NCBI RefSeq assembly: GCF_001436395.1
Contig: NZ_AZGJ01000004.1
Span: forward strand, 1-64,000
From: Secundilactobacillus malefermentans DSM 5705 = KCTC 3548
GTDB lineage: Bacteria > Bacillota > Bacilli > Lactobacillales > Lactobacillaceae
Length of the DNA stretch: 64,000 bases
Reading direction: 5' to 3'
Part shown: piece by piece, positions 11,530 through 15,976 of the stretch
Layout of the letters: each line of letters starts with the position of its first letter
How positions within the stretch are numbered: the stretch's first letter is position 1
Made by a program: the position numbers and the translations under genes
The notes under the pieces: model-generated
The model's database searches: none
Seen by the model: the letters and a program-made list of their open reading frames with translations, nothing else
Told to the model about the DNA's origin: nothing

Positions 11530-11570
11530 CTGAATTTGATTTTAGAAAAATAAATAGAGGAGTGTCGACG

Positions 11571-12911
11571 ATGGCAAAACATGATTACAACAAAGATGAC
11601 ATTAGACAGATGGCTAAAGATGAGAACGTTAAATTTTTACGCTTAATGTTTACGGATTTATTTGGAACGATTAAGAATGTTGAGGTTCCAATTTCACAAT
11701 TGGAAAAACTTCTTGATAATAAGCTAATGTTTGATGGTTCTTCAATTGATGGCTTTGTTAGAATTGAAGAAAGTGATATGTATCTTTATCCTGATTTATC
11801 AACTTGGATGATTTTTCCTTGGAGTAGTGAACGAGGCAAAATTGCTCGTGTCATTTGCGAAGTTTATACACCAGATAAAGAACCATTTGAAGGCGATCCC
11901 CGTAATAATTTAATTCGAGTCCTTGACGATATGAAAAAAGCAGGATTTACCAGCTTTAACATTGGACCTGAACCTGAGTTCTTCTTATTCAAAATGGATG
12001 AAAATGGAAAACCAACGACAACGCTTAATGATCAAGGTTCCTATTTTGATATGGCACCAATGGACCTTGGCGAAAATTGTCGCCGTGAAATTGTTTTAAC
12101 ACTAGAGGAAATGGGCTTTGATGTTGAGGCGGCGCATCACGAAGTTGCCCCAGGGCAACACGAAATCGACTTTAAGTATGCTGATGCTTTAGAGGCTGCT
12201 GATAATATTCAGACCTTTAAACTTGTTGTGAAAACAGTTGCACGTAAATACGGTTTATATGCAACCTTCATGCCAAAACCATTAGCAGGTATTAACGGTT
12301 CCGGGATGCACATTAACATGTCACTGTTCCATAATGACGGAAACGCATTTTATGATAAGAAGGGTGAATTAGAGCTCTCCAAAGATGCCTATTACTTCTT
12401 GGGTGGACTGTTAACTCATGCCCGTAGTTTTACCGCTATTTGCAATCCAACGGTTAATTCCTACAAACGGTTAGTTCCTGGCTATGAAGCGCCTGTTTAT
12501 GTTGCATGGTCCGGTTCAAATAGATCACCTTTAATCCGTGTACCAAGTTCTCGTGGTCTTTCTACTAGACTTGAACTGCGAAGTGTTGACCCAACTGCTA
12601 ATCCATATTTGGCAATTGCTGCAATTCTTGAAGCAGGACTAGACGGTTTGAGAAATAAGATTGAGCCAACGGAAAGCGTTGACCGAAATATTTATCGTAT
12701 GGATGAAGAGGAACGAGAAGAGAACCATATCACTAATCTACCGGACACGCTTCATAATGCATTGAAGGATTTAGAAACGGATACAGTAATGAGAAAGGCA
12801 ATGGGATCACATTTGTTCCAAAGCTTTGTTGAAGCTAAAAATCTGGAATACAACGCTTATCGTACCCAAGTTTCTAAGTGGGAACGCGATCAATACATGG
12901 AACTCTATTAG
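11571..12911 (+). CDS. glnA: Glutamine synthetase type I
   Basis: A 446-residue cytoplasmic enzyme making glutamine from glutamate, ammonia and ATP, active as a dodecamer. Recognisable motifs are [19 protein letters not shown] near the N-terminus, EPEFFLF, the ATP-binding region with [13 protein letters not shown], and NRSPLIRVP / [17 protein letters not shown] around the active site. The length fits the GSI-alpha subtype, which is regulated by feedback inhibition rather than adenylylation. ATG 11571 has AGAGGAGTG upstream; an earlier in-frame start at 11562 overlaps this SD. Confidence 0.97.
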
Positions 12912-13091: not shown

Positions 13092-13979
13092 ATGGATAAC
13101 CAGGGCCAAGTAACAGAAAATAATGCGAATCAATCAGACGTTCAGTTGAACGGAGAAATTAGTCAAAAGATCGAATATTTAACAACACTTCAAACAGCAA
13201 TTGCTGATAAACATGATTTAAAGGCGTATGAACTTCTTGATACAACTCGATTTGGTAAGTTAATCAAGAAAACCAGAACGTCTACTAGACCAACCGGCCT
13301 GGAAAAATTGGTAGATGATTTGCACCCAGAACTAAGTCATTACTTGAGTCACCATCTCATCGACTATCTTGGGAAAACATATCCATTTTTCTATTATGAT
13401 GAATATAAACTAGGAGAATTCCAAATTTATTTTGGAAACTGGTGGAATCGTCGACAGTTTGGCACCCTCGATGTCTTAAATATTGCTTTCAAGTTTGATG
13501 AAGATGAGTTTGATAAATTAAAAACAGGTTTCGAATTAGAAACGGAAAATAAGCGGTATAACAGTAGTCGAATCGAAGAAATATCTGCCAGTAATACTGA
13601 TTTACAAAAGCTTATCGATGATCAAACGAATCGTGATCAACGTAAAGAGCAACTTAGGGCTCAGCTTAAAGAAAATGGGCAGAAGAGCACATTACCTTGG
13701 GACTCAGGGAAAGTTAAGGATGAGCGACAAGTAATTATTGATCAATTAAGTACATTGGCAGACGAGGATGAAGCAGCTCTAGATGCCAATAATACAATTA
13801 AAGAAAATGATGAACAAATCTTAGCATTGTCAAAAGAAGACACCATCATTAACTATGAAATGCAAAGTATAAAAAAGACTTTTGAAGACTTCAGTCGATT
13901 TAATCAACGAAATCAAAGTCTATATACCGATTATCTAAATAGCCTAGTAGGGGAAGCGCGGGTGAACGCAGATGATTAA
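13092..13979 (+). CDS. Conserved-type protein of unknown function, coiled-coil
   Basis: I do not recognise this 295-residue protein. Its first half is mixed and aromatic-rich (HHLIDYLGKTYPFFYYDEY, FGNWWNRRQFG, about residues 90-125). The second half (about 150-285) is highly charged and helical, with heptad-like Gln/Lys/Glu/Leu runs suggesting a coiled coil. No Walker or nuclease motif is visible, and no signal peptide or membrane helix. ATG 13092 follows GAGGGAATATT, and the gene overlaps the next by 8 bp. It opens a three-gene operon whose last member looks like a dUTPase, hinting at nucleotide or DNA metabolism; that link is inference only. Confidence 0.7.
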   Translation: MDNQGQVTENNANQSDVQLNGEISQKIEYLTTLQTAIADKHDLKAYELLDTTRFGKLIKKTRTSTRPTGLEKLVDDLHPELSHYLSHHLIDYLGKTYPFFYYDEYKLGEFQIYFGNWWNRRQFGTLDVLNIAFKFDEDEFDKLKTGFELETENKRYNSSRIEEISASNTDLQKLIDDQTNRDQRKEQLRAQLKENGQKSTLPWDSGKVKDERQVIIDQLSTLADEDEAALDANNTIKENDEQILALSKEDTIINYEMQSIKKTFEDFSRFNQRNQSLYTDYLNSLVGEARVNADD

Positions 13980-14913
13980 TGAAAATGATCCTTCAACCTT
14001 AAGTACGAGTGGTAGATTATTGGCGTATAACGACGCTATTAAATCTGGTCTCGAAACGGGTGAAAAATTCACAAAATTAATGGATCAACTAGTCCAAACA
14101 ACTGATCCTGAATTATTATTGCAGGCCGCGGATGCCTTATCGGTTTATTCGTTGAATTCCGATTATGTGACATTTCCACATCAATATTCGTTTGCCGATT
14201 TTTATCTGATTTTTGTAAGCCGGATGTGGGAACTTCATGGTGAAGGCGACGCAATCACTTTGGAATCATCAGAATATCAAGAACAACTAAATCAACAAAT
14301 TACTGTTCTAGATGACTCAGGTACATTTAATTTCAGTAATACGGGGTCTGATGATAGTGGCGTTTATTATCAGGAACGGGCAAGTGGCCAATCCTTGTTC
14401 TATTTGAATTTGCAAAAAAAGATGCTGCGATTTAACAGCCATGCATTTACTCAACTATTTATCATTCAGTATGCAGATAAAGTCGAAAAGTCTGATATTT
14501 TAAAAGCTGTTCAAGTTTTTATTAATCTCGGGAACTATCTCAAAAAGGATTTCGGTTTTAGCGTGGACTTTAATATGTTAGATACAGATAATAGTGAAGT
14601 TTATGAATTCCAAAATGAGCACTTATCCGAGTCTATTGTTGATAAACTCTTCGTTTCTGCTGCACACGAAGGGTACATGCTTGAAAATAGCGCGACCGGT
14701 ACCGGAGCAATGCTACATTTAAAGGATGATTTAGTCGTTCAGGTTTATAATAAAGGATCACAAAGCGATCCAGACTGGGTTTTAAGTGTTCATGATAAAC
14801 TACAACAAGTTTCCTGGTTCAAATTATTAATTGATTATGATTTCCTAAAAGCTTGGTATCTAAATGATTTGGCTGAGTTGGAAATTAAATCTGATCCGCT
14901 CGTTTTTGCCTAA
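13972..14913 (+). CDS. Protein of unknown function
   Basis: I do not recognise this 313-residue protein. It is acidic and soluble, with no signal peptide, membrane helix or catalytic motif that I can name. Notable stretches are FPHQYSFADFYLIFVSRMWELHG (about 65-87), a Ser/Gly/Asp-rich centre (NFSNTGSDDSGVYYQERASG, about 119-138) and hydrophobic-aromatic segments near the C-terminus (WFKLLIDYDFLKAWYLNDL). It starts at ATG 13972 inside the end of the previous gene, 8 bp overlap, and ends 21 bp before the dUTPase-like gene. The tight packing suggests the three products act together or in one pathway. Confidence 0.7.
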   Translation: MINENDPSTLSTSGRLLAYNDAIKSGLETGEKFTKLMDQLVQTTDPELLLQAADALSVYSLNSDYVTFPHQYSFADFYLIFVSRMWELHGEGDAITLESSEYQEQLNQQITVLDDSGTFNFSNTGSDDSGVYYQERASGQSLFYLNLQKKMLRFNSHAFTQLFIIQYADKVEKSDILKAVQVFINLGNYLKKDFGFSVDFNMLDTDNSEVYEFQNEHLSESIVDKLFVSAAHEGYMLENSATGTGAMLHLKDDLVVQVYNKGSQSDPDWVLSVHDKLQQVSWFKLLIDYDFLKAWYLNDLAELEIKSDPLVFA

Positions 14914-14934
14914 TAGAAGGGACGATATTAATAA

Positions 14935-15483
14935 ATGGCATTGGATTTAGGTGCATTACTAAAAAAGTCCATTCAGTTGGATCAAAGTATTTCGGATCAA
15001 AAATCACTTTATATGAAAAAAGAATTAGCAATTCAAAATGCCTACGTTTCACTTGATGTGGAGTTGGCAGAGATTGCAAACACTGCTGAGTGGTTTAAAA
15101 TTTGGAAAGAGAATCGCGGCAAGAAAGCAACTGAAGGGAAAACTCACAGACAAACCTTATTGGAAGAATATGTCGATGCGCTTGATTTCTATCTGCTTGT
15201 TGCTGCTAAGCAAACCTGGTCTCACCTAATTGTGATTGATCCAGCTGATTTAACAGAATTAAGTCAAAATAGTCCTGACAAAAACATGGATCAACATTAT
15301 CTAGTGATGAAAGAACAGTTATTTGATAGTCACTTTAATCATAGACAGGAATCATTCAGACACTCATGGCGTCTTTTTCTTAAATGGGGCCTGGTTGATT
15401 TTAAATTTACTCAAGATGAAATTCAGAATGCCTATTTGAAAAAGAATCAAATCAACTATGATCGCCAAAATAATGGGTACTAA
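14935..15483 (+). CDS. Probable dimeric dUTPase, MazG-like all-alpha NTP pyrophosphatase
   Basis: A 182-residue all-helical protein with the metal-binding pattern of dUTPase_2 (PF08761) enzymes: E43-x-x-E46 in DVELAEIANTAEW and E78-x-x-D81 in LLEEYVDALDFYL, separated by a FKIWKENRG segment. Such enzymes hydrolyse dUTP (and often dUDP) to dUMP and keep uracil out of DNA. ATG 14935 is preceded by AGAAGGGACG. It is the last gene of the operon and is followed by a strong terminator. Substrate specificity within the MazG-like superfamily cannot be read from sequence alone, so dCTP or other NTP hydrolysis remains possible. Confidence 0.75.
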   Translation: MALDLGALLKKSIQLDQSISDQKSLYMKKELAIQNAYVSLDVELAEIANTAEWFKIWKENRGKKATEGKTHRQTLLEEYVDALDFYLLVAAKQTWSHLIVIDPADLTELSQNSPDKNMDQHYLVMKEQLFDSHFNHRQESFRHSWRLFLKWGLVDFKFTQDEIQNAYLKKNQINYDRQNNGY

Positions 15484-15486
15484 CTA

Positions 15487-15528
15487 AAATAGAGGCAAGC
15501 GGGTTTGTATACCTGCTTGCCTCTATTT
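15487..15528. terminator. Strong bidirectional terminator
   Basis: 14-bp perfect stem AAATAGAGGCAAGC / GCTTGCCTCTATTT with an inner extension, between the dUTPase-like gene and a convergent small ORF. Confidence 0.92.
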
Positions 15529-15540
15529 AATATTCCCCCG

Positions 15541-15675
15541 TTATGCGTTTCGGTTCATTTTGGGGTTATCAGAAAAATGTCTGCTGTTCTTTTTGACGGA
15601 CTTAGAGTAGTCCAAGTAATATTGCCAAATACCTGCACCAATAATAAGAAAAATAATAAATAATAGAAAAATCAT
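15541..15675 (-). CDS. Small membrane protein, 44 residues
   Basis: A short minus-strand ORF encoding one very hydrophobic N-terminal helix (MIFLLFIIFLIIGAGIW) followed by a basic, polar tail (SKSVKKNSRHFSDN). The start ATG (15675-15673) has a strong GGAGGA SD 6-8 bp upstream, and the frame ends just before a bidirectional terminator, which together make it a credible gene despite its size. I do not recognise the family. It is predicted to lie in the membrane with its charged tail in the cytoplasm. Confidence 0.7.
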   Translation of the reverse strand: MIFLLFIIFLIIGAGIWQYYLDYSKSVKKNSRHFSDNPKMNRNA

Positions 15676-15864: not shown

Positions 15865-15885
15865 AGTAAATGTTCGTGATGCTAT

Positions 15886-15959
15886 GTCGCAATAGCTCAG
15901 CTGGATAGAGCAACGGTCTTCTAAACCGTAGGTCGAGGGTTCGAATCTCTCTTGCGACA
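15886..15959 (+). tRNA. tRNA-Arg (anticodon TCT)
   Basis: A complete 74-nt cloverleaf: acceptor GTCGCAA/TTGCGAC with discriminator A, D-arm GCTC...GAGC, anticodon stem ACGGT/ACCGT with loop CTTCTAA giving anticodon TCT (reads AGA/AGG), and T-arm GAGGG-TTCGAAT-CTCTC. CCA is not encoded. It is a single tRNA gene with its own promoter and terminator. Arg tRNAs are frequent phage integration sites, but no integrase or repeated tRNA end is seen downstream. Confidence 0.97.
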
Positions 15960-15976
15960 TTTTGCAAACTGATTAA

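Follow-up and report, generated by a model that had tools for sequence, protein, structure and literature searches.

A dimeric-dUTPase-family gene behind two conserved genes of no known family in Lactobacillaceae: the active site is lost in at least five lineages and the gene is kept

What does a gene of the dimeric dUTPase family do directly behind two genes that resemble no known family? The question is raised by a locus of Secundilactobacillus malefermentans DSM 5705 = KCTC 3548, within the 64,000 nucleotides of contig NZ_AZGJ01000004.1 analysed here (the window). Three genes lie on its forward strand, namely gene A (13092..13979; 295 aa) and gene B (13972..14913; 313 aa), both ORFs of no known family, and gene D (14935..15483; 182 aa), of the dimeric-dUTPase family PF08761. 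According to the ORFs, A and B overlap by 8 bp (13972-13979), and 21 nt separate B from D. SD-like sequences can be read directly upstream of A (GAGGGA) and of D (GAAGGGA). An earlier note on this DNA had described two unrecognised proteins of about 300 residues, overlapping by 8 bp, followed by D and having SDs of their own, and all of this is confirmed. Its strong terminator is supported by an 18-bp hairpin 3' of D (about 15487..15528, + strand), a probable terminator with a folding energy of -31 kcal/mol (z = -8.2; none of 200 shuffled sequences folds as well), but the T tract is weak and the hairpin is absent from the terminator list of the pattern scan. Promoter-like sites in the trio region did not rise above chance.

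The trio is flanked in the window by glnR-glnA on the 5' side and by tRNA-Arg / TetR / rplU-ysxB-rpmA on the 3' side. The glnA gene (11562..12911, +) is the usual, not obligatory, upstream neighbour and lies outside the unit. Just past the hairpin there is an ORF for a membrane peptide of about 44 aa (about 15539-15660, - strand), and the tRNA-Arg (tct) downstream of D (15885-15960, +) is found at the same place in three other loci (L132, L209, L211). Since the gene content between D and rplU varies, this stretch may be an insertion site.

The window copy of D matches Pfam PF08761 (dUTPase_2) at E=1.3e-21, with 78 bits against a curated cut-off of 22.9. Its metal-binding ExxE and ExxD are E43 E46 and E78 D81, its FKxWK loop is F54 K55 W57 K58, and its C-terminal tail contains K170 N174 R177 Q178, in which K170-N174-R177 are spaced as Lys154/Asn158/Arg161 in motif V of phiDI Dut. 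The ExxE, FKxWK, ExxD and motif V Lys-Asn-Arg elements are common to this copy and the Bacilli phage dUTPases of PF08761 / PHROG 173, including Dut of S. aureus phage phiDI (PDB 5myd), and phage dUTPases are also the nearest outside relatives found for D (about 30% identity). The name "dUTPase" is a family assignment for D, and catalysis is a prediction from the sequence.

The alignment of D comprises 103 copies, of which 69 are called active-type (EEED at positions 43/46/78/81) and 34 inactive-type (EEED not all kept); both counts include close relatives. At motif IV, the window copy has Asp84-Phe85 instead of His-Phe, and Asp occupies this position in 66 of 69 active-type copies, whereas all four phage relatives have His. 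The His was proposed to select uracil in dimeric dUTPases, while phiDI Dut has Ala at this position and is still a dUTPase, and Ala was linked to the ability of some forms to act as dCTPase and dITPase (PMC5608427). Because phiDI Dut remains a dUTPase with Ala, Asp84 bears on substrate specificity and not on family membership; as it replaces the His, and the Ala of phiDI is tied to dCTPase and dITPase activity, active-type D may act on more than dUTP alone. D differs further from the phage enzymes in W145 and K150, which are specific to the cellular family, occur in the window copy and are missing from the four phage enzymes, in its place in a cellular operon with A-B, and in having many orthologues without an active site.

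D is not the only dUTPase-family protein of these cells. A match to the trimeric dUTPase family PF00692, whose fold is unrelated to that of D, was found above cut-off in 63 of 63 genomes tested, and D was the sole PF08761 match in each genome of the set that had one. The PF00692 protein of the window genome has 178 aa, adjoins radA (by eye) and contains the stretches AAGYD, RSS, GIGVIDADYY, GQGIF and GGFGS, which we take to be like the five trimeric dUTPase motifs. Because a PF00692 dUTPase is found in all 63 genomes, catalysis by D would probably be redundant for dUTP.

The main observation is that D has lost its active site in five lineages or more, in which the gene is intact and in place. 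In the 34 inactive-type copies, the FKxWK loop is also shortened or altered and the NxxRQ tail is mostly gone, and most genomes with such a copy have no PF08761 match above cut-off. The "probable dimeric dUTPase" of the earlier note is thus right as to family, but many orthologues lack catalytic residues. Inactive-type D is found in every Secundilactobacillus examined other than S. oryzae and the window species, in Ligilactobacillus and relatives, in Limosilactobacillus (L143, L208), in a group made up of g23, g43, L059, L064 and L066, and in L067. On a quick tree of neighbouring core proteins with missing data, the state of D changes at least six times, and at least five changes are forced by supported branches. 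We read these changes as losses because regain of all the elements is implausible.

The inactive-type copies evolve faster than the active-type copies (D distance 0.61 vs 0.44 at similar core distance). Nevertheless, they are not decaying pseudogenes, since their frames are open, their median dN/dS is 0.04-0.07 in the few pairs with usable dS, and W145 and K150 are retained in 34 of 34, compared with none of the four phage relatives. Among active-type copies, which are under strong purifying selection, W145 is found in 68 of 69 and K150 in 64 of 69. These two residues may serve core packing of the penultimate helix of D instead of a partner surface.

How the three genes are inherited is clear from their order and distances. 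The order A-B-D is found in 80 of 80 named Lactobacillaceae loci, which are the best matches to A and hence not a random sample; one locus that seemed to deviate, L094, did so only through the choice of ORFs. Across 201 Lactobacillaceae genomes, B was detected in 105 by a single-protein search and D likewise in 105 by a profile search; 91 genomes have both, and in all 91 D lies directly downstream of B on the same strand. The reading frames of A and B share bases in 75 of these 80 loci, and 42 of the 75 overlaps measure 8 bp. Generally, glnA adjoins the trio and D is mostly near rplU. Insertions between glnA and A occur in several loci (L077, L078, L088, L131, L143), none is found inside the trio, and the trio is intact in L060 and L127, where other genes stand on either side of it. 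In Ligilactobacillus and two other genera (L129, L135-L138, L055, L057), a gene of 387-394 aa replaces glnA before the trio.

Protein distances correlate with those of the concatenated neighbouring core proteins (0.885 for A and 0.832 for B), and the A-B correlation (r=0.935) is above that of A with the core. A was absent from 50,697 phage records, and a plasmid collection held a single record with it (L208, CP033372.1, 760 kb), which carries glnA, rplU, nusB and other chromosomal genes and is probably chromosomal sequence that was misassembled or wrongly labelled; a phage or plasmid origin of A thus found no support beyond this chromosome-like record. Judged from these comparisons, A-B-D is an ordinary vertically inherited operon. 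The suggestion in the earlier note that it may simply be a lactobacillus family without known function is supported, and the same genes in the same order across the family show one conserved unit and not a chance arrangement.

However, the trio is not indivisible. A and B are present without D in g8, g17, g46 and f3. Diverged A-B pairs of adjacent genes without D come from f3, probably Enterococcaceae and thus a second Lactobacillales family, and from the Lacticaseibacillus-like L185-L190 group. By hhalign, A matches f3 at E=1.3e-9 and the L185-L190 group at E=9.5e-17, and B matches them at 7.5e-9 and, over the C-terminal 73 columns only, 1.5e-7. Among 398 genomes sampled from the phylum, A-B was not found beyond the window itself. 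From this distribution, A-B would predate the arrival of D, or D would have been lost on the other branches; the later arrival is simpler. LemA-like and HtpX-like genes, recognised by eye, follow A-B in place of D in g17 (L070, L191), and in g8 the A gene is split into two frames with B intact (L069:7757-8625, - strand).

Conversely, inactive-type D occurs without A or B in 14 genomes of two reduced genera (g23 and g43), where absence means no profile match at E <= 0.001. Because D is kept there while A and B are absent, D has retained a function independent of them in these genera. Since D without A/B and A/B without D show separable functions, a shared operon does not by itself imply a complex.

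For A and B themselves, searches of Pfam, NCBIfam and PHROGs gave no significant match, and profile comparison found no homology between the two. The AlphaFold2 models (mean pLDDT 88.8 for A and 88.9 for B) predict for A N-terminal helices, a four-stranded sheet (100-135) and a long C-terminal coiled coil (158-264), whose helices bear out the coiled-coil half that had been read from the sequence, and for B a mixed alpha/beta protein with a C-terminal domain (205-308). A conserved motif, YPFFYYxE...FGNWWxRRxFGxLDVLN, lies in the sheet region of A, and the closest A among named genomes is that of S. oryzae (77%).

Searched against the PDB by sequence, A and B gave either coiled-coil chains alone, above E 0.1, or no match; Foldseek returned nothing at E <= 0.001 for either model against the PDB or for the B model against viral models. 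VIA-align gave only coiled-coil rows for A, and because the coiled coil dominates the search, the sheet domain was barely probed. For B 205-308, its matches (RnlA, KA1, phosphoglucomutase domain 4 and Mediator types) reach Z 6.2 with an rmsd of 3.5 over 90 residues, which is within the method background, so the TBP/KA1-like resemblance of the modelled domain at Z about 6 is weak. A Pfam hint of AbiV (HEPN) for A (E=0.099) lies over the coiled coil and was rejected as chance.

In Limosilactobacillus fermentum CP033372, A and B have direct orthologues that follow glnA and are annotated "exonuclease SbcC" and "hypothetical protein", and D is named dUTPase. The SbcC identity was rejected for A, which has 295 aa and no SbcC, nuclease or ATPase match in Pfam/NCBIfam, and the name seems to reflect the coiled coil only. 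A proteomic study of luxS in L. plantarum lists a "Dimeric dUTPase" (A0A0G9FCA3) that may or may not be D (PMC5654829), and a literature search for lp_1582 to lp_1584, or for SbcC together with dUTPase, found nothing.

We favour the reading, at a probability of about 0.55, that D is a recruited phage-type dUTPase which repeatedly became a pseudoenzyme and whose lasting role is binding, and that A-B is the older pair which D joined. In this scheme A and B would be an old, vertically inherited Lactobacillales pair, probably working as a complex, beside which a phage-type dimeric dUTPase would have been recruited in a subgroup of Lactobacillaceae. As the active site was lost at least five times and the gene was kept, in place and under purifying selection, the lasting job of D is most likely non-catalytic, such as binding of a partner protein, or of a nucleotide without cleavage, and D would then act as a pseudoenzyme or regulatory subunit. 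A precedent exists in regulatory phage dUTPases of the dimeric type, which derepress SaPIs by binding Stl and so have a binding function besides catalysis (PMC5608427); however, these enzymes keep their catalytic motifs, whereas D is without catalytic residues in whole genera. Copies with the catalytic residues, as in the window, may additionally hydrolyse dUTP or another dNTP, and inactive-type copies may still cleave by an altered mechanism. More tentatively, D could be a domesticated phage dUTPase turned into a pseudoenzyme in parallel, which serves with an A-B complex as a dNTP-sensing or protein-binding regulator, catalysis being the dispensable part of the family.

The strongest rival, which we still consider unlikely, is that D and A-B are independent housekeeping genes with unrelated jobs, held together by ancestral synteny only. 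It is favoured by the survival of D in g23 and g43, where A/B are missing, and by genomes that have A/B but no D, and also by the position of D mostly near rplU, by which adjacency can be plain synteny; yet insertions fall just upstream of the trio in several loci and never inside it, the trio has been relocated as a whole in L060 and L127, and A and B overlap in nearly all the named loci. The same low standing is given to nucleotide-pool housekeeping, raised in the earlier note, in which D would be a working dUTPase or dNTP pyrophosphatase with A and B as its partners or regulators. The window copy argues for it, with its PF08761 match, all catalytic residues and motif V spaced as in phiDI, and so does the strong purifying selection on active-type D, but as a conserved role it is weakened by retention of the gene after loss of the catalytic centre in at least five lineages, by a PF00692 dUTPase in every genome tested and by the A-B pairs without D; such a role may apply to active-type species only.

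Far less probable is an antiphage role, which the earlier note also raised. The trio would then be a defence or toxin-antitoxin unit in which D acts on phage nucleotides or in sensing of phage dUTPase; in its favour, phage dUTPases are closest to D, and regulatory binding functions are known for those of the dimeric type (PMC5608427). No PADLOC model matched A, B or D (for the f3 relative of A there were weak matches, confined to the coiled coil), A was not found in phages and its only plasmid-collection record, with glnA and ribosomal protein genes, is chromosome-like, and the patchy distribution and mobile-element association typical of defence are not seen. The earlier note had held that constant adjacency to glnA with an ordinary core-genome phylogeny would speak against defence; the phylogenetic part holds, and glnA is the neighbour in most genomes but not all. 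A defence role is unlikely because the trio is vertical and widespread in the clade, with core-like distances and mostly beside glnA.

In summary, what is new at this locus is the loss of the catalytic site in D with retention of the protein itself. Active-type and inactive-type orthologues occupy the same locus in different species, in places of a single genus, and form a natural series that makes a non-catalytic role of a dUTPase-fold protein directly testable in harmless food bacteria. For many genera, a "dUTPase" annotation of D is unsafe, and A and B are two conserved protein families that no family model covers, in a large bacterial group with industrial uses.
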